A program made the translations under genes and the position numbers. A stretch of DNA of 32,654 nt from contig JAAYYY010000192.1 of NCBI GenBank assembly GCA_012515125.1, forward strand, positions 1-32,654, given 5' to 3'. The notes below the pieces were generated by a model. That model worked only from the letters and a program-made list of their open reading frames with translations. It ran no database searches and had not been told where the DNA came from. Below, one piece after another: positions 20,393 to 28,296 of the stretch. Position 1 is the stretch's first letter. Every line of letters starts with the position of its first letter. Source of the stretch: Chloroflexota bacterium. GTDB lineage: Bacteria > Chloroflexota > Anaerolineae > Promineifilales > Promineifilaceae.

Positions 20393-20406
20393 TAAGGTCA
20401 GCCTTA
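20393..20406 (-). promoter_or_regulatory. DtxR/IdeR-like iron box upstream of feoB
   Basis: The inverted repeat TAAGG-TCAG-CCTTA matches 13 of the first 14 positions of the IdeR consensus TWAGGTWAGSCTWACCTWA. It lies about 20 bases before the feoB ATG and overlaps a minus-strand TATAAG -10 candidate (20409-20404), the right place for iron-dependent repression. No DtxR-family gene is in the window. Confidence 0.6.
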
Positions 20407-20465
20407 TACCTGTATTTTAGGCAGTCCTTGAATTGTCTGATAGGGGATAGGATCACGTGGGGGCC

Positions 20466-20479
20466 GTGACAAATGTCAC
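20466..20479. promoter_or_regulatory. CRP-family operator-like palindrome between feoB and mug
   Basis: GTGACA-AA-TGTCAC fits the CRP/FNR-superfamily core GTGA-N6-TCAC exactly. Its centre is about 47 bases before the mug ATG and 100 before the feoB ATG, so either gene may be the target. It may allow redox or carbon control of iron uptake. Confidence 0.5.
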
Positions 20480-20519
20480 CACTTCGCGCGACCGCCGCGA
20501 GTGTGGTAGGGTTTCGCCT

Positions 20520-21101
20520 ATGAACGAGGAAAAGAGCCGCCGGCCGAACCGTTCGGAGCTGCAGGCTGCGGCCGGCAAGACGGTAAACGACGTCATCGCG
20601 CCGGGGCTAAAGGGCCTCTTTTGCGGCATCAACCCGGGCCTCTTCACCGCCTGGATGGGCCACCACTTCGCCCGGCCGGGGAATCGCTTCTGGCCTGCCA
20701 TCCACGCCGCCGGCATCACCCCGCGCCTGCTCCACCCGCCGGAGGAACAGGAGCTGCTGCGCTACGGTTATGGCATCACCAACGTTGTGCAGCGAGCCAC
20801 GGCGCGCGCCGACGAGCTATCCAGAGAGGAGTACGTGCAGGGAGGCGAGCGGCTGGTCGAGAAAGTGATGCGTTACCGGCCCGGCGTGCTGGCGATACTG
20901 GGACTTGGCGCTTACCGCACCGCCTTCGGCCGGCCCAATGCCAGCGTCGGCCTCCAGAGCAGGACGATTGACGGCGTGCCCATCTGGCTGTTGCCCAACC
21001 CCAGCGGACTCAACGCCCATTACCAGCTCGCGGACCTGGCTCGCCTGCTGCGCGAGCTGGACGACTTCGCCACGGCGCAGGCTGCCGCTACAAATCGATA
21101 G
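20520..21101 (+). CDS. mug: Mismatch-specific uracil/thymine DNA glycosylase
   Basis: Removes U or T mispaired with G, starting base-excision repair of deaminated cytosines. The 193 residues from ATG 20520 include the family-2 UDG motif GINPG (near residue 38) with the active-site Asn, and the second motif NPSGLN near the C-terminus; GNRFWPAI and GYGITNVV are family landmarks. A GTG at 20457 would add 21 residues and overlap the CRP-like palindrome, so I reject it. The last 14 bases overlap the end of the convergent M42 gene. Confidence 0.93.
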   Translation: MNEEKSRRPNRSELQAAAGKTVNDVIAPGLKGLFCGINPGLFTAWMGHHFARPGNRFWPAIHAAGITPRLLHPPEEQELLRYGYGITNVVQRATARADELSREEYVQGGERLVEKVMRYRPGVLAILGLGAYRTAFGRPNASVGLQSRTIDGVPIWLLPNPSGLNAHYQLADLARLLRELDDFATAQAAATNR

Positions 21102-22080
21102 GCCGGGAGAGCAATTCTACCAGGAGCCGGACGCTGTTTTCGACGTCGCCGGCATGGACGACCTCGCTCTGTGAATGCACGTAGCGGCAGGGAACGCTTA
21201 TCGCGCCGGCGGCGCTGCCCGCGCCCGCAATCTGGATCGACCGCGCATCCGTGCTGCCCGGCTCCAGCACTTCCATCTGGTAGGGAATGCCGGCCTCGCC
21301 TGCGCGTTGGCGCATGAGCTGCACCAGCCCGGCGTGGGCGATCATATCCCGGTCTTTCGCCTTGATCGCCGTGCCCTTGCCCAGCTCGACGGCCATCTCC
21401 GCTGCGCCGGGTGTGTCGCCCGTTCCCGTCACGTCGATAGCCAGACCAATCTCGGGCTCGATAGCATTTGCTGCTGCCTGCGCGCCGCGCGTGCCCACCT
21501 CTTCCTGCACGCTGAACACCACGTACAGGTCGTGAGGCGTCGCCTCGAGTCGCTGCAGCGCCGCAATGGCAATCGCGCAGCCAATGCGGTCGTCCAGGCT
21601 CTTGGCGATGTAAAGCTCCCCTTGTTGCTCGAACGGCCCGACGAACGCGGCGGCGGCGCCGACGGCCACAGGGACGTCTTCCCGGCTGGAAGCGCCCACG
21701 TCGATGTAATGTTTGCTCAGCGGATGGACCTTACTGCGATCTTCCAGTTTCTCGCCGTAGACGACGCCTGTCGTGCCGTCGGCAAACTGCACGCGGCTGC
21801 CCATGAGGTGATGCACGAAGACGCCGCCGATGTTGGTGAAGCGCAGGAAGCCCTCTCTGGTCACGTGGGTAACCATCACGCCGATCTCGTCCATGTGCGC
21901 CGCAACCATGACCCGGCGCCCGCTGCCGTCCCCCTGCTTGCGGACGATCAGGTTGCCCAGGGCATCGACACGAATCTCGTCGGCGTAAGCTTCCACTTCC
22001 GGCCGGATGATCTCGCGGACGGCGTCCTCAAAGCCGGATGGCCCATACGCGCTGACCAGTTTTTCGATTAGCTCTTTCAT
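21088..22080 (-). CDS. M42 family metallo-aminopeptidase (copy A)
   Basis: Dinuclear-metal aminopeptidase or endoglucanase-like enzyme of the M42 family; characterised members (TET, YsdC, FrvX) form dodecamers that trim short peptides in the cytoplasm. The 330 residues contain His62-x-Asp64 in AAHMDE, KSLDDR (Asp163), QEEVG (Glu193-Glu194), AIDV (Asp216) and CRYVHSQSE with the last metal His. All catalytic residues are present. ATG at 22080 has GGAG nine bases upstream. Third gene in the M42 trio, 27 bases after copy B. Confidence 0.93.
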   Translation of the reverse strand: MKELIEKLVSAYGPSGFEDAVREIIRPEVEAYADEIRVDALGNLIVRKQGDGSGRRVMVAAHMDEIGVMVTHVTREGFLRFTNIGGVFVHHLMGSRVQFADGTTGVVYGEKLEDRSKVHPLSKHYIDVGASSREDVPVAVGAAAAFVGPFEQQGELYIAKSLDDRIGCAIAIAALQRLEATPHDLYVVFSVQEEVGTRGAQAAANAIEPEIGLAIDVTGTGDTPGAAEMAVELGKGTAIKAKDRDMIAHAGLVQLMRQRAGEAGIPYQMEVLEPGSTDARSIQIAGAGSAAGAISVPCRYVHSQSEVVHAGDVENSVRLLVELLSRPIDL

Positions 22081-22107
22081 CGTTCTGCTCCGTGGTCTAC
22101 GACAGGT

Positions 22108-23142
22108 TTATCGCTGCAGTACAGCCGCGTCGAGGTTGCGTAGCGCCGCCTGCGCGAGCTGCACGACGTGGCCGAAATCGTCGAGGTTAATCATGCTTGT
22201 CGGCGCGTGGGCATAGCGGGTCGGCGTGGCAATCGTGGCTGCCGAAACGGCGCCTCCGGCCCGCTGGATCACGGCTGTGTTCGTGCCGCCCCCACCCGGC
22301 TGGCGGATCTGGTAAGGGATGTTGTTGTCGTCGGCGGTGCGCATGAGGTGGCTGACGAGCCGTGGGTCCTGGATTGTTCCGGCGTCCATCACGTACAGGG
22401 AGGCTCCCCGGCCCATGACGACGTTCGGGCTGACGTCCCGTTCGTTGGGCAGGTCGTAGGCCGGCGTCGACTCCAGCACGAGCGCGACGTCGGGCCGCAC
22501 GCCGAAGGCTGCTGCCTGCGCGCCGCGCAGCCCCACTTCTTCCTGTACCGAGAAGACGGCGTAGAGGTCGAACGGAAAGGGCTCGCCGCGCAGCAGCTCG
22601 ATCAGGGCCGCACAGCCTGCCCGGTTGTCGAACGCTTTTCCCAACGCCACACGCCCGCTTTCTTCGTACCTGGTCAGGAAGGTAGCCCGGTCGCCCGCGC
22701 TCACCTTACGCTCGGCCTCCTCTTTCTTCTTCGCGCCGATGTCGATGCGCATGTCGTCAATCTTGACGTTCCGGTTGCGCTGTCCGGCATCCAGCAGGTG
22801 GATGGGCCGGGCGCCGATCATGCCCGGAAGCTGCTTTGGTCCAACCTGGACTACCTTGCCGAGCAGGGCCGGAGGGCTGATACCGCCCACCGCCTCAAAA
22901 CGCAGCGTGCCGTCGCTGTCGGCGCCGGTAATCATCATACCCACTTCGTCCATGTGGGCATCCACCAGCACCCGTAGCCCACTCGCGCCGCTGCCTTTCT
23001 TGAGGGCGATGAGGTTGCCCAGGGCGTCGACGCGCCACTCGTCCACGTGCCCGTCGATCAGGTCGCGGATCAGCAAGCGCACCTGTTTTTCGTCGCCAGA
23101 AACGCCCACTGCTTCGGTCAGTTTTTGTAGGAGATCGTTCAT
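22108..23142 (-). CDS. M42 family metallo-aminopeptidase (copy B)
   Basis: 344-residue M42 peptidase. Metal site: His63-x-Asp65 in DAHMDE, KAFDNR, QEEVG, and TRYAHAPTS. The fifth ligand position reads LVLEST, with Glu where copies A and C have Asp (AIDV); Glu at this site is known to occur in some M42 enzymes. It has a longer dimerisation domain with a Lys/Glu-rich loop. Its start is one base after the copy C stop, so they are cotranslated. Only moderate similarity to copies A and C suggests old paralogues with distinct peptide preferences. Confidence 0.92.
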   Translation of the reverse strand: MNDLLQKLTEAVGVSGDEKQVRLLIRDLIDGHVDEWRVDALGNLIALKKGSGASGLRVLVDAHMDEVGMMITGADSDGTLRFEAVGGISPPALLGKVVQVGPKQLPGMIGARPIHLLDAGQRNRNVKIDDMRIDIGAKKKEEAERKVSAGDRATFLTRYEESGRVALGKAFDNRAGCAALIELLRGEPFPFDLYAVFSVQEEVGLRGAQAAAFGVRPDVALVLESTPAYDLPNERDVSPNVVMGRGASLYVMDAGTIQDPRLVSHLMRTADDNNIPYQIRQPGGGGTNTAVIQRAGGAVSAATIATPTRYAHAPTSMINLDDFGHVVQLAQAALRNLDAAVLQR

Positions 23143-23143
23143 G

Positions 23144-24253
23144 CTAATCCGCTTCCATCATCTTGCGCGCCGTCTTCTCCAGAAAGTCGGCGTCGAGCTG
23201 CGCGGCGAACTCGCCCAGCAGCCGGCCGGCCCGCCGCACGTCCCTCAGCGCAGCCGTCTCCACCATCGTGTGCATATAACGCAGCGGGATGCTGACCAGG
23301 CCCGTGGGGATGCCGGCGCGGGCAACCTGCAGGCCGAAGGCGTCGGTCCCGCTCGCCCGCGCGTGGGGCTCGACATGCACCGTCATTTCCAGCGTCTCGG
23401 CGGCGCTTTTCAGTGCTTCGTGGATGCCCGGATGGACGTTCGGCCCCAGGCCCAGCGTCGGTCCACCGTCCAGCTCAAAGAGATGGCTCTCTTTGGCGCC
23501 CGGCCCTTTGCCAAAGGTAACGTCAATAGCCACCGCCAGGTCAGGCTGCTCGGCGTAGCCGCTGGTGAAGGCGCCCAGCAGGCGCGTCTCCTCCTGAACA
23601 GTCGCCACGGCGATCACGTCCCAGCTATGCTCCCGCTTCTGCAGGTAATCGAGCGCGACCGTCACAGCGGCGACTGAGGCGCGGTTGTCCAGCGCCTTGC
23701 CGCTGACGCGGTTGTTGAGCAGGCGGCGCAGCGGCTGGCGAAAGGTGATGAAATCGCCAACCGACACCAGATTCCGCAGCTCGCCCAGCGGCAGGCCCAC
23801 GTCGGCTACCAACTCGTCGAGATCGTAGGGCTTATCGCCGCGGTCGGGCGGCAACATGTGTGTGGGCAGGGCGGCGATGACGCCGGGCAGGTTACGCTGC
23901 CCATGGACGACGATCTGCTGCCCATACAGGTGGCGCAGGTCGACGCCGCCCACGCGCGAGACGCGCAGGAAGCCGTGAGCCTGCTCGTCCTCGGCGCCCT
24001 CTTTTTCGGACGGGTAGGCGACGATCTGCCGGACCATCAGGGCAATTTCGTCCATGTGTGCGGCGAGAAGCAGCCGGGGGCGAGGCCCATCGCCTTTGCC
24101 GCGTTTCACCGCCACGATGTTGCCTATGCGGTCCTCGCGCACTTCGTCGGCCAGGGGGCGCCACATCTCCATGATGACCATGGCGATGCCGGCTTCCTGC
24201 CCCGAAGGACCGGGCGTCTCCGTTAAGGTCTGTAATGTCTTAAAAAGGTCCAT
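23144..24253 (-). CDS. M42 family metallo-aminopeptidase (copy C)
   Basis: 369-residue M42 peptidase, the longest of the three. His66-x-Asp68 in AAHMDE, KALDNR, QEETR, AIDV and RYMHTMVE give a complete metal site. In QEETR the family's usual Val-Gly after the two catalytic Glu residues is replaced. It has an insertion around residues 75-90 rich in Glu (SEKEGAEDEQ) and a long loop between 120 and 160, both in the domain that shapes TET-complex entrances. It starts nine bases after the stop of the Pro/Thr-rich gene, with little Shine-Dalgarno sequence, suggesting coupling. Confidence 0.92.
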   Translation of the reverse strand: MDLFKTLQTLTETPGPSGQEAGIAMVIMEMWRPLADEVREDRIGNIVAVKRGKGDGPRPRLLLAAHMDEIALMVRQIVAYPSEKEGAEDEQAHGFLRVSRVGGVDLRHLYGQQIVVHGQRNLPGVIAALPTHMLPPDRGDKPYDLDELVADVGLPLGELRNLVSVGDFITFRQPLRRLLNNRVSGKALDNRASVAAVTVALDYLQKREHSWDVIAVATVQEETRLLGAFTSGYAEQPDLAVAIDVTFGKGPGAKESHLFELDGGPTLGLGPNVHPGIHEALKSAAETLEMTVHVEPHARASGTDAFGLQVARAGIPTGLVSIPLRYMHTMVETAALRDVRRAGRLLGEFAAQLDADFLEKTARKMMEAD

Positions 24254-24262
24254 AACGTTTAC

Positions 24263-24766
24263 TCAATCTGTGCCTACCGTGTCGGTGACCGGAACCGTCG
24301 GCTCAATGGTGACCTCCAGCGTAGGTGTCTCGTTGGGCGACTCGCTCGTGGGCGTATCTTCCGGCGTGGCCGTCTCCGTCGGCGTGGGGGTCAGCGTTTC
24401 TGTCGGCGTCTCGGTGGGCGTTGCCGTATCGGTGGCGGTCGGTTCTGGGGTCTCGGTGGGCGTCTCGGTCGGCGTGGCCGTATCGGCCGGGGTGGCGCTG
24501 GGCTGCAGCGTCGCCGTGGCAAACTGGCCGGGGGTCGGTGGCAGGGTTGCCGTGGGCTCCCGCGTAATGCCCGGCTGCGACGTTGGGGTCGGTAGCTGTG
24601 TGGGCGGGCTGGTCGCCGAAGCTGTGGGCGTGACGAGGGGCGCCGGCAATGTAGGCATCTGACCCGGCGCCAGCGTATAGGCCGCGATGCCAAGGCAGTA
24701 GCAGGGAAGGGTCAGCAGGATGATACCGATGAGGATAGTGTACGTGCGGCGTGGCGAATTCATCAT
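24263..24766 (-). CDS. Membrane-anchored Pro/Thr-rich surface protein
   Basis: 167 residues. One hydrophobic helix (about residues 10-32, ILIGIILLTLPCYCLGIAAY) follows a short Arg-containing N-terminus, so this is a signal anchor with the rest outside, or possibly a lipoprotein-like signal. Everything after residue 38 is low complexity: Thr, Pro, Ala, Glu, in repeats such as ATPTETPTET. Such stalks are common in Chloroflexota surface proteins and may be glycosylated on Thr. There is no folded domain and no C-terminal sorting motif. Two Met codons (24766, 24763) can start it. It leads the M42 operon; no shared function is obvious. Confidence 0.8.
   Translation of the reverse strand: MMNSPRRTYTILIGIILLTLPCYCLGIAAYTLAPGQMPTLPAPLVTPTASATSPPTQLPTPTSQPGITREPTATLPPTPGQFATATLQPSATPADTATPTETPTETPEPTATDTATPTETPTETLTPTPTETATPEDTPTSESPNETPTLEVTIEPTVPVTDTVGTD
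24300..24500 (-). repeat. Coding low-complexity repeats in the surface protein
   Basis: Imperfect 12-base units (ACN GAR ACN CCN and relatives) encode Thr-Glu-Thr-Pro. Two longer near-copies share TCTCGGTGGGCGT and GCCGTATCGG (plus-strand reading). Likely grows and shrinks by slippage. Confidence 0.7.
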
Positions 24767-24813
24767 CAGGATTTGGGCGACGTTCGTTGCCGCAACTGGC
24801 GGAAACTGGTCAG

Positions 24814-24842
24814 ATCATAGAGGACAGCAGGCCAAAAGACAA
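24814..24842 (-). promoter_or_regulatory. Candidate promoter for the surface protein/M42 operon
   Basis: Minus-strand TTGTCT (24842-24837) and TATGAT (24819-24814), spacer 17. Transcription would start about 40 bases before the gene. No promoter stands out between the four genes of this operon. Confidence 0.45.
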
Positions 24843-24870
24843 ACCGCGATTGTGGCGGTAGACGAGATCA

Positions 24871-24899
24871 TTGCGCTTATATCTGGGCCGTGTTAATAT
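24871..24899 (+). promoter_or_regulatory. Candidate promoter for the sensor kinase
   Basis: TTGCGC at 24871-24876 and TAATAT at 24894-24899, spacer 17. The -35 is identical to that of rpmB. Start would be near 24906, leaving an 80-base leader that contains a strong hairpin. Confidence 0.35.
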
Positions 24900-24948
24900 T
24901 TCGTGAAAGGCGCCACGTTTCGGGGAAGTGGTTCCATTATTGCCAGGG

Positions 24949-24974
24949 CAGGAGCTGTCCGTTGGCAGCTCCTG
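24949..24974 (+). other. Leader hairpin just before the kinase ribosome site
   Basis: Perfect 9-bp stem CAGGAGCTG / CAGCTCCTG with an 8-base loop. The 3' arm ends two bases before GGGAGA, the ribosome site of the kinase. There is no T run, so it is not a terminator. The 5' arm itself contains AGGAG. Confidence 0.6.
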
Positions 24975-24987
24975 GCGGGAGACACCT

Positions 24988-27900
24988 ATGCCAGTTGAAC
25001 TATGGGGAGCAACTGAGACGCCACGCTTGGTCATGCCCGAGCGCCCCTTCCTTGCCTTGTCATTATTCCTGTTCTATCTGGTTTTGTTTGCCTGGTTTCT
25101 CTACCGGCAGCGGTCGTCGTTGCGCCGGCTGACCGGCCGGCAGCGCATGGGGTTGCTGCTGTTGGTGCTGGCGGGCTTCGCCGGCAGCCAGTTCCTGGCG
25201 ATGTCGGTCACACTGCCCGGCCTGCTGCCGCGCCCCGGCGTCGTCCAGAACCCGCAGACGGTTCTGGCGCTCCTGAGCGCGATCCCGCTGGTGCTCGCAG
25301 CGGCTTATTTTCCGCCGCCCGTGGCCGTCCTCGTCGGCTTCGCCACCGGGTTGAGCCGGATGTTCTGGCAGAGCCACCAGCTATTCGAGCCCCTCTATTT
25401 CGCTCTGGCGACGCTGCTCGTCGCCACTTTCCTGCAGCAGCGCTACCGTGGCTGGATGTACGACATCATCCGCCAGCCCATTGCCGCCGCCCCGCTCGGC
25501 CTCCTGCTGGGCTTTCCCCTGCTCGGTTGGGCTATGTTGAGCTATGCCACTACGGAGGTTGAGACCCTCGTCGCTCTGGATTGGGCGATCTCGACCACGT
25601 GGGCCCAGCTACTGCCGCTGGCTGTCGAGGCGCTCGTCGGCGGCTTCGTCCTGCGTGCCCTGTGGATCGCGCCGGAGTTGCGGCCCGATTATGGCCCGCT
25701 GGTTAGCTCGATTGCCGGGCGCACGCTGCGCAGCCGGCTTCTCGTCAACTTCGCGCTGCTCTCTATCATCGTGGCGACGCTTCTGCTGATGGTCGTCTTT
25801 CTCTCGGCGAAAAGTGTGGCCACCCGGCTGGCGATCAACGAGATGGCCCAGGATGCCAGCGCCGTCTCCGAAGAGATACCCGACTTCCGCAACCAGCTGC
25901 AAAACCTGCTGCGCCAGTATGGTCAGAACCAGACGCTGCTGGGAGTGGACGAAGAGGCCATCGGCGACGAACTGGCCCAGCTGGCCCGCAGCGGCGGCGC
26001 CTATTACCGTCGGGTTATTCTGGTAGACGGCGACGGACAGGTCCGCGCTTACTATCCTGACCGGGACGTACGCTCGGTGGAGCTGACGGCGCAGGAGGAG
26101 ACCGCCGTTGGTGATGCCGTGGCGCGCGGCCTCCCGTCGATCACGGCGGCCCAGGAAACGGCCGGCGGGCTGGAGGTGGTAAGCATCGTCGTGCCGGTCA
26201 TGAACGAGGAAGGCCAGGCCGAAGCCGCCCTGATTGGCCGCATCCCCGGCGTGGCCCTCGGCGGGCTGGTCGGCGGCATCCAGAACACAGTGGGCGCCGG
26301 CACCGGGTTCATCGTGGACGAAGAAAACCAGGTGATCGCGCACCCTGACGAGACGAGTCTGCTGACGACCTGGGTGCCGGCCGTCTCTGAGGATCAATAT
26401 CTCCGCGCCCGCCGGGACCTCCCGGGATTTGCCTATGAAGGGCGCTCCAGCGATACCAATGCCCGCGAGCTGGTCTATTTTGCCGAGGGGCCTGACCATC
26501 CCTGGACGGTCGTGGTCACGCTGCCCTATGCCGTCGTGCTCGGGCTGGCCCTGGAGATCAGCGCACCCCTGCTGCTGGCGCTGTTGCCCGTCATCGGTCT
26601 TGTCGCCGCGCAGCTCTACCTGCTCAGCGACTCGATCAGCAAGCCGCTGCGCCGGCTGGTTCAGGCGTCGCACCAGCTAACGTCCGGCAACTGGGAAGCG
26701 ACTGTGCCGCTTGACGACGAAGGAGAAATCGGCCAGCTTGCTCAGGCCTTCGAGCGCATGCGGCGCTCCTTACAGCAGCAGTTCAACGACAAGAGCCTGA
26801 TGCTGCAGGTCAGCCAGGACATTTCGACGAGCATCGACATCGAGCATGGTATCCCGACCATCCTGCGCGGTATCCTGCGCGGGACCGGCGCAGCAGGCGT
26901 GCGCGCCATCGTGCTGAACCCGATGAGCCGCCACCCGCTGGCTTTCGCCGACGGTCCGGTGGGGGACGTGATGGCCCCCTTCGACCGCCATATCGTCCAG
27001 TTGGCCCGCCAGCAGGAGGAGCTGATCCTCAATACCCCCGAACAGATTTGCCACGCCTTCAACCTGCCGGTCCAGGCCTCTCTCCCTGTGCAGGCCATGG
27101 TTTCCGTGACGCTCTACAGCAAGAGCAAATTCCAGGGTGTCCTCTACCTCGGCTATCGCCAGGCCCGCGTCATCGAAGAGTCTGAGCTGAATCTGTTGCG
27201 CACGCTGGCCGGTCAGGCCTCCGTCCTCGTGGAGAACGCCCACCTCTATGCCACCGCCGAGGGCCAGCGGCGCCGCCTGATCGCCGTGCTCGCCAGCACC
27301 TCCGATGCCTTCGTGGTTACCGACCAGACAAACCGTATCCTGTTCGTCAATCCGGCGATGGAGCGCCTCTTTAACATTAATGCCAGGGCCGTGACCCACC
27401 GGCAGGTTGCCGATGTCATACCGAGCCGGCCGCTCGTGGCAGCACTGACCGAACGTGAAGAGCGGGTGCGCAACCTGGAGATCCCCGGCGACGATGGGCG
27501 CACCTTTTATGCCGGCGTTTCGACGATTGTTCGCGGCGACGGGCAGGTTGTGGGTCGCGTCGCCGTTCTCCACGATATCACCCAGCTCAAGGAGCTCGAC
27601 GACCTCAAATCCGAGTTTGTGGCTACGGTTTCACATGACCTCCGCAGCCCGCTGACCTTCATGCGCGGCTATCTGGCCATGCTCCCCATCGCCGGAGAGA
27701 TCAATGAGCGGCAGCAGGGTTACGTGGAGAAAATCCAGAGTGGCGTTGAGCAGATTTCGCGCATAGTCGAGGGTCTGCTCCACCTGGGTCGCATTGAAGC
27801 CGGCGTAGAGCTGGTCATCAACGACATCGAGGTGCCGCAGCTGCTCACGGAGGTGGTGGCGGATCACGCCGACCAGGCCGCCGAAGCAGGGCTGGACCTG

Positions 27901-28296
27901 CAGGTCATAGCCCGGCCCGATCTGCCGATTATGAAGGCAGATGCCGCGCTTCTCAAGAGCGCAGTCACCAACCTGATCGGCAATGCGATCAAACATGCGC
28001 CTCACAGCGGCGTCGTGCTCGTGCGCGCGCAACATGATGGGGACGAGATTATCTTCAGCGTCCAGGACCGGGGGCCCGGCATCCCACACAAGGAGCAGAT
28101 CCGGCTATTCGAGAAGTTCTACCGCGTGCGGCAGAAAGATCAGGACGTTACGAAGGGATCGGGTCTGGGCCTGGCTATCGTGAAGAGCATCGTCCAGCGC
28201 CACGGCGGGCGTGTCTGGGTGCACAGCCAGGAAGGGAAGGGCAGTACCTTCTACTTCTCGCTACCGGTCAAGTATAGCGTTCAGGTCGAGGCATAA
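24988..28296 (+). CDS. Large multi-domain membrane sensor histidine kinase
   Basis: 1102 residues. Order: an N-terminal block of about six to eight membrane helices (about 15-235); another helix near 255-275; an extracellular sensor of about 230 residues (dCache-like, about 280-510); a membrane helix (about 520-545); HAMP (549-600); GAF (605-755); PAS (765-868); HisKA with phospho-acceptor His883 in SHDLRSPL; and HATPase (about 982-1098) with NLIGNAIKHAP, DRGPGIP and GSGLGLAIVKS. All catalytic boxes look intact. No receiver domain or response regulator is nearby, so it is an orphan kinase. GGGAGA five bases before ATG 24988 supports that start over a GTG at 24928. It is divergent from the M42 operon, a possible target. 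Ligand unknown. Confidence 0.93.
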   Translation: MPVELWGATETPRLVMPERPFLALSLFLFYLVLFAWFLYRQRSSLRRLTGRQRMGLLLLVLAGFAGSQFLAMSVTLPGLLPRPGVVQNPQTVLALLSAIPLVLAAAYFPPPVAVLVGFATGLSRMFWQSHQLFEPLYFALATLLVATFLQQRYRGWMYDIIRQPIAAAPLGLLLGFPLLGWAMLSYATTEVETLVALDWAISTTWAQLLPLAVEALVGGFVLRALWIAPELRPDYGPLVSSIAGRTLRSRLLVNFALLSIIVATLLLMVVFLSAKSVATRLAINEMAQDASAVSEEIPDFRNQLQNLLRQYGQNQTLLGVDEEAIGDELAQLARSGGAYYRRVILVDGDGQVRAYYPDRDVRSVELTAQEETAVGDAVARGLPSITAAQETAGGLEVVSIVVPVMNEEGQAEAALIGRIPGVALGGLVGGIQNTVGAGTGFIVDEENQVIAHPDETSLLTTWVPAVSEDQYLRARRDLPGFAYEGRSSDTNARELVYFAEGPDHPWTVVVTLPYAVVLGLALEISAPLLLALLPVIGLVAAQLYLLSDSISKPLRRLVQASHQLTSGNWEATVPLDDEGEIGQLAQAFERMRRSLQQQFNDKSLMLQVSQDISTSIDIEHGIPTILRGILRGTGAAGVRAIVLNPMSRHPLAFADGPVGDVMAPFDRHIVQLARQQEELILNTPEQICHAFNLPVQASLPVQAMVSVTLYSKSKFQGVLYLGYRQARVIEESELNLLRTLAGQASVLVENAHLYATAEGQRRRLIAVLASTSDAFVVTDQTNRILFVNPAMERLFNINARAVTHRQVADVIPSRPLVAALTEREERVRNLEIPGDDGRTFYAGVSTIVRGDGQVVGRVAVLHDITQLKELDDLKSEFVATVSHDLRSPLTFMRGYLAMLPIAGEINERQQGYVEKIQSGVEQISRIVEGLLHLGRIEAGVELVINDIEVPQLLTEVVADHADQAAEAGLDLQVIARPDLPIMKADAALLKSAVTNLIGNAIKHAPHSGVVLVRAQHDGDEIIFSVQDRGPGIPHKEQIRLFEKFYRVRQKDQDVTKGSGLGLAIVKSIVQRHGGRVWVHSQEGKGSTFYFSLPVKYSVQVEA

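Follow-up and report, generated by a model that had tools for sequence, protein, structure and literature searches.

A putative peptide-catabolism operon of three M42 aminopeptidase genes with an adjoining predicted membrane protein gene in Anaerolineae

The locus and its putative transcription unit

The window, that is the whole stretch of 32,654 nucleotides that was analysed, carries on its minus strand three M42 aminopeptidase genes (A, B and C) preceded by the gene of a small proline- and threonine-rich protein (PT), the features being arranged as follows in the direction of reading:

24814–24896, minus strand: two sigma-70-like promoter candidates from a consensus scan only, between PT and a divergent histidine kinase gene
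24263–24766, minus strand: PT, open reading frame of 167 amino acids
23144–24253, minus strand: gene A, M42 aminopeptidase, open reading frame of 369 amino acids
22108–23142, minus strand: gene B, M42 aminopeptidase, open reading frame of 344 amino acids
21088–22080, minus strand: gene C, M42 aminopeptidase, open reading frame of 330 amino acids

The coordinates of the open reading frames give gaps of exactly 9, 1 and 27 bases, as the first-pass annotation had described, and its reading of the four genes as one co-directional unit also holds. Indeed, the consensus scan of positions 20400–25300 returned three sigma-70-like promoter sites where 0.5 would be expected, the third being located inside gene C (at 21143), and a sequence scan of the unit found no terminator-like site inside PT-A-B-C. 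With promoter-like sites ahead of PT and the genes not separated by any terminator-like site, the arrangement fits one transcript, and we infer that PT-A-B-C forms a single operon. Both the GC content and the third-position GC of the four genes match those of the neighbouring genes. Divergent from PT lies a large sensor histidine kinase gene (24928–28296, plus strand; dCache, HAMP, GAF, PAS, HisKA and HATPase domains), a relative of which is found in the equivalent position in 12 loci of the window's family, the window included. At the other end, gene C faces a convergent gene of the uracil-DNA-glycosylase family (20457–21101, plus strand), the two sharing 14 bases at the 3′ end of C.

Three M42 enzymes and their lineages

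Over their whole length A, B and C match PF05343 with E-values of 6e-66, 2e-82 and 5e-83, respectively, and with scores of 223–279 bits against a curated cut-off of 23.2, and NCBIfam returned for them no specificity assignment above a cut-off. The ligands of the dinuclear metal site and the catalytic glutamate are intact in the three window proteins: all site residues (H68, D182, E212, E213, D/E235 and H323 in PhTET2 numbering) are present, and they are near-universal in the 102 A, 96 B and 88 C sequences compared. The fifth metal ligand, which had been read as Asp in A, Glu in B and Asp in C, is confirmed as such in the window; among the relatives it is Asp in every A and C sequence examined and is divided in the B clade between Glu (66/96) and Asp (30/96). 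The top PDB sequence match of A is 1vho and that of B is 2fvg (TM1049), and C matches 1y0r (PhTET2) and 4p6y/3isx (TM1050). AlphaFold models of A (pLDDT 93.2) and B (pLDDT 91.9) have TET peptidases as top Foldseek matches, with TM-scores of about 0.8–0.95; for A the best of these are PhTET3, MJ0555 and PfTET3, and for B the matches are likewise TET folds. The models thus predict for both proteins the TET subunit fold, composed of a catalytic and a PDZ-like dimerisation domain, and the assignment of C to this fold is based on its 43% identity to TmPep1050 and PhTET2.

A tree of 69 M42 proteins, built with a quick method, resolves A, B and C as three distinct clades with SH-aLRT supports of 99, 100 and 100, so that together with the profile matches and the conserved ligands the earlier claim of three different M42 enzymes with intact sites is upheld. 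According to the tree and the PDB titles, each clade contains one Thermotoga structure: 1vho with A, 2fvg (TM1049) with B and 4p6y (TM1050) with C, the placement of 1vho with A being less sure because its branch is long in the quick tree. The PDB title of 1vho does not name the locus, and we take it to be TM1048. Pairwise identity among A, B and C is only 30–38%, compared to 52% between PhTET2 and PfTET3. Recent local duplication as the origin of the trio is ruled out by the three separate cross-phylum clades, which imply that the trio very likely either predates the split of the phyla or was transferred as a block. The archaeal TET2 and TET3 enzymes form a cluster of their own that includes none of A, B and C. 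The genome carries two further M42 genes in addition to the three of the trio, one (on contig C127) encoding a YsdC-type enzyme that clusters with Bacillus subtilis YsdC away from the trio, and the other (on contig C287) most resembling the deblocking aminopeptidase of Bacillus cereus (2gre).

A close counterpart of the trio is found in Thermotoga maritima, where TM1048, TM1049 and TM1050 (1vho; 2fvg; 3isx and 4p6y) likewise provide one member of each clade, at only 37–43% identity to the window proteins. These genes have consecutive locus numbers (PMC4517919), which by themselves suggest that the gene order is the same as in A-B-C.

Conservation of the gene order and distribution of PT

A survey of the trio's gene neighbourhood had been set beforehand as a refutation test, and the order proved to be conserved in Chloroflexota and Bacillota. 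In the window's family and class, 26 of the 29 loci having gene A contain A-B-C complete and on one strand, with gaps or overlaps mostly between −4 and about +100 bases, and in the remaining three C is missing because the contig ends or is misassembled. A profile of gene A, run against the species genomes of GTDB, yielded 80 named loci, which are best matches only and not a census; the complete order in the same direction is found in 68 of these best-matching loci, corresponding to 44/55 in Chloroflexota and 24/24 in Bacillota, and several of the incomplete loci end at contig breaks. The Bacillota holders comprise Desulfosporosinus, Alkaliphilus, Dethiobacter, Candidatus Frackibacter, Fermentithermobacillaceae and others. 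That relatives from two phyla agree in gene order and strand is far beyond chance. Bacterial M42 enzymes here present themselves as a set of three ancient lineages that has stayed together in more than one phylum. Several Anaerolineae trios (L083, L096, L105, L109, L118, L119 and L151) have a peptidase S51 gene between B and C, with PF03575 seen in the inserted gene of L109 and L151.

The N terminus of PT is short and positively charged and is followed by a single hydrophobic segment, which ends in P-C-Y-C-x-G, and by an acidic tail rich in threonine and proline. In the window protein an N-terminal RRTYTILIGIILLTLPCYCLG anchor is followed by a P/T/E-rich tail (T 32%, P 22%), which by its sequence characterises PT as a single-pass membrane protein. 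Reading this protein by eye, we found no standard lipobox, the cysteines following P and Y, and no LPXTG sortase motif; comparison of PT with Pfam and NCBIfam gave no match. The N-terminal motif of the family, RRRTYxxLIGIILLTxPCYCxG, is kept in many genomes, usually in one copy, and this rules out that PT is a chance low-complexity reading frame. At E≤2.7e-6, PT is detected in 67 of 150 Anaerolineae genomes, and the profile search indicates that it is essentially confined to this class, with hardly any occurrence in other classes of Chloroflexota.

The first-pass annotation had coupled a surface protein to the peptidases, and in this respect the result is divided: the adjacency is real in part of Anaerolineae, but PT also occurs without the trio. 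Indeed, PT lies directly upstream of A on the same strand in 29 of the 40 sampled genomes having both, representing 10 families of Anaerolineae and usually at a distance of 8–40 bases, and in at least one further genome with both genes (G011) PT and A each end at contig breaks. Among the best-matching loci, PT precedes A in 39 of the 51 named loci of Chloroflexota whose upstream sequence is available and in none of the 24 loci of Bacillota and Poribacteria. In addition, at the threshold used, A occurs in 47 sampled Anaerolineae genomes in which PT is not detected, and PT in 27 in which A is not; in one of these 27 (G157), M42 genes scoring below the threshold lie beside PT. Since the narrow (A2) and the broader (A3) profile of the N terminus retrieve nearly the same genome set, most families with A and without PT appear to lack it at this sensitivity, although short anchors that have diverged might escape detection. 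The idea that PT belongs invariably to the trio is rejected, as PT is missing from the Bacillota loci and present alone elsewhere; its association with the trio is an arrangement conserved in part of one class, and the occurrence of A without PT, of PT without A and of Bacillota trios without PT weighs against a functional tie. Outside the trio, PT adjoins varied genes, such as those of IleRS, a LytR-CpsA-Psr protein, an ABC transporter and an RNase H-like protein; relatives at L145, L170, L132, L150 and L140 are found beside IleRS/LytR-CpsA-Psr or ABC transporter genes. In one locus with gene A (L031, G033:C3) a CPBP-like intramembrane protease frame, identified by eye, replaces PT and ends just upstream of A.

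Proposed function and the question of mixed particles

We favour the reading that the locus is a cytosolic peptide-catabolism operon, in which three TET aminopeptidases of complementary specificities are co-transcribed with an envelope protein of Anaerolineae, and assign to it a probability of roughly 0.7. Its observed base is made up of intact active sites, three ancient orthologous lineages, a fixed gene order and tight spacing, in both Chloroflexota and Bacillota. No signal peptides were seen by eye on A, B and C, which places the enzymes presumably in the cytosol, where they would remove N-terminal residues from short peptides one at a time. Each enzyme would prefer different residues, and when co-expressed from one shared transcript the three together would strip peptides to free amino acids. 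PT is most likely an envelope protein sharing the transcript in Anaerolineae rather than a peptidase subunit; it would reside in the membrane with its positively charged N terminus in the cytosol and its P/T-rich tail outside.

A division of labour that may apply to A, B and C is supported by the literature on related enzymes. PhTET1, PhTET2 and PhTET3 of Pyrococcus horikoshii, which like the trio are several M42 TETs of one cell, have complementary specificities and were described as an integrated peptide-destruction system (PMC4220976), and TmPep1050 of T. maritima, the counterpart of gene C, prefers leucine and other aliphatic residues (PMC3511314). By analogy with TmPep1050, C may have a leucine/aliphatic preference, and the surroundings of its metal site resemble those of TmPep1050 and PhTET2. 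For A a basic preference is probable, as the surroundings of its metal site resemble those of lysyl TET3 enzymes (DVTF, RYMH and three residues missing before the NxxP segment); however, A is not grouped with PfTET3 in the tree, which counts against a TET3-like preference. These site residues of A and C are leads for specificity and not tests of it.

The catalytic chamber offers a further difference among the three enzymes. In PhTET2 a flexible loop of the chamber carries a conserved histidine that aids substrate binding and may sit near the active site of the neighbouring subunit (PMC8993905). This histidine is universal in the B clade (96/96), partial in the A clade (60/102, the window protein reading PTH and having it) and missing in the C clade (1/88, scored within four columns), and its absence from C is due to a loop about six residues shorter, as also in TmPep1050. 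Loop differences, which the first-pass annotation had placed at the openings of the particle, are real and are documented here for this chamber-lining loop (PhTET2 residues ~120–138).

The pattern, which looks as if the subunits were specialised, bears on the proposal that A, B and C co-assemble in a fixed arrangement into a dedicated hetero-oligomeric TET particle, the tandem gene order serving co-translational assembly. Precedents exist, as in vitro the dimers of PhTET2 and PhTET3 combine into defined heterododecamers, in which active sites of both kinds meet at every apex (PMC4220976), and the B. subtilis paralogues YtoP and YsdC, two bacterial M42 enzymes, were reported to be heteromeric in cells with the support of in-cell crosslinking (PMC10090944; PDB 9a5r); also, A/B and B/C are overlapping or close in most loci. 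Against this, A, B and C are less alike (30–38%) than PhTET2 and PfTET3 (52%), the PhTET heteromers were obtained in vitro, from dimers dissociated with a chelator, and TmPep1050, a member of the C clade that also lacks the loop histidine, is active and was crystallised by itself (PDB 4p6y). Moreover, co-transcription can be conserved with no physical complex behind it. We consider co-assembly plausible but tentative, and on balance unlikely. The stricter version, an obligate mixed particle to which the B subunits and some of the A subunits contribute the chamber-loop histidine absent from C, so that one chamber combines active sites of differing specificity with loops that complement each other, and which in Anaerolineae is tied to PT, appears very improbable.

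That PT itself is tied to the peptidases, either by holding the cytosolic particles to the membrane close to an importer of peptides or by reporting peptide supply, we regard as distinctly doubtful. Its position directly upstream of A on the same strand in 10 Anaerolineae families excludes random placement by a rough binomial estimate that ignores shared ancestry, but this adjacency can be explained by shared ancestry of one arrangement; moreover, the cytosolic part of the window protein amounts to only about 10 residues, leaving almost nothing to bind with, trio families without PT are common, and PT is found beside unrelated genes in genomes without the trio. A different activity altogether, that of cellulases or endoglucanases, would follow from the annotation of the Thermotoga relatives, as the PDB entries 1vho, 2fvg and 3isx bear the name endoglucanase; it has next to no chance of being correct, because TmPep1050 and CelM displayed aminopeptidase and no significant cellulase activity when assayed (PMC3511314) and every ligand of the dinuclear peptidase site is conserved in A, B and C.

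Returning to the peptide-catabolism operon, M42 peptidases and multiple M42 copies per genome are already known, and we found in the open-access literature no description of a conserved three-lineage trio or operon, or of PT. The trio provides defined partners for directly testing whether TET peptidases act as mixed machines, and PT constitutes a small, unannotated and class-specific family of membrane proteins, characterised by the motif PCYC, in a group, the Anaerolineae, that has seen few functional studies. By its description, a further similar case is Symbiobacterium thermophilum, which has several characterised M42 aminopeptidases, SthPep1079 and SthPep1080, with adjacent locus numbers, and a third M42 enzyme (PMC3511314).
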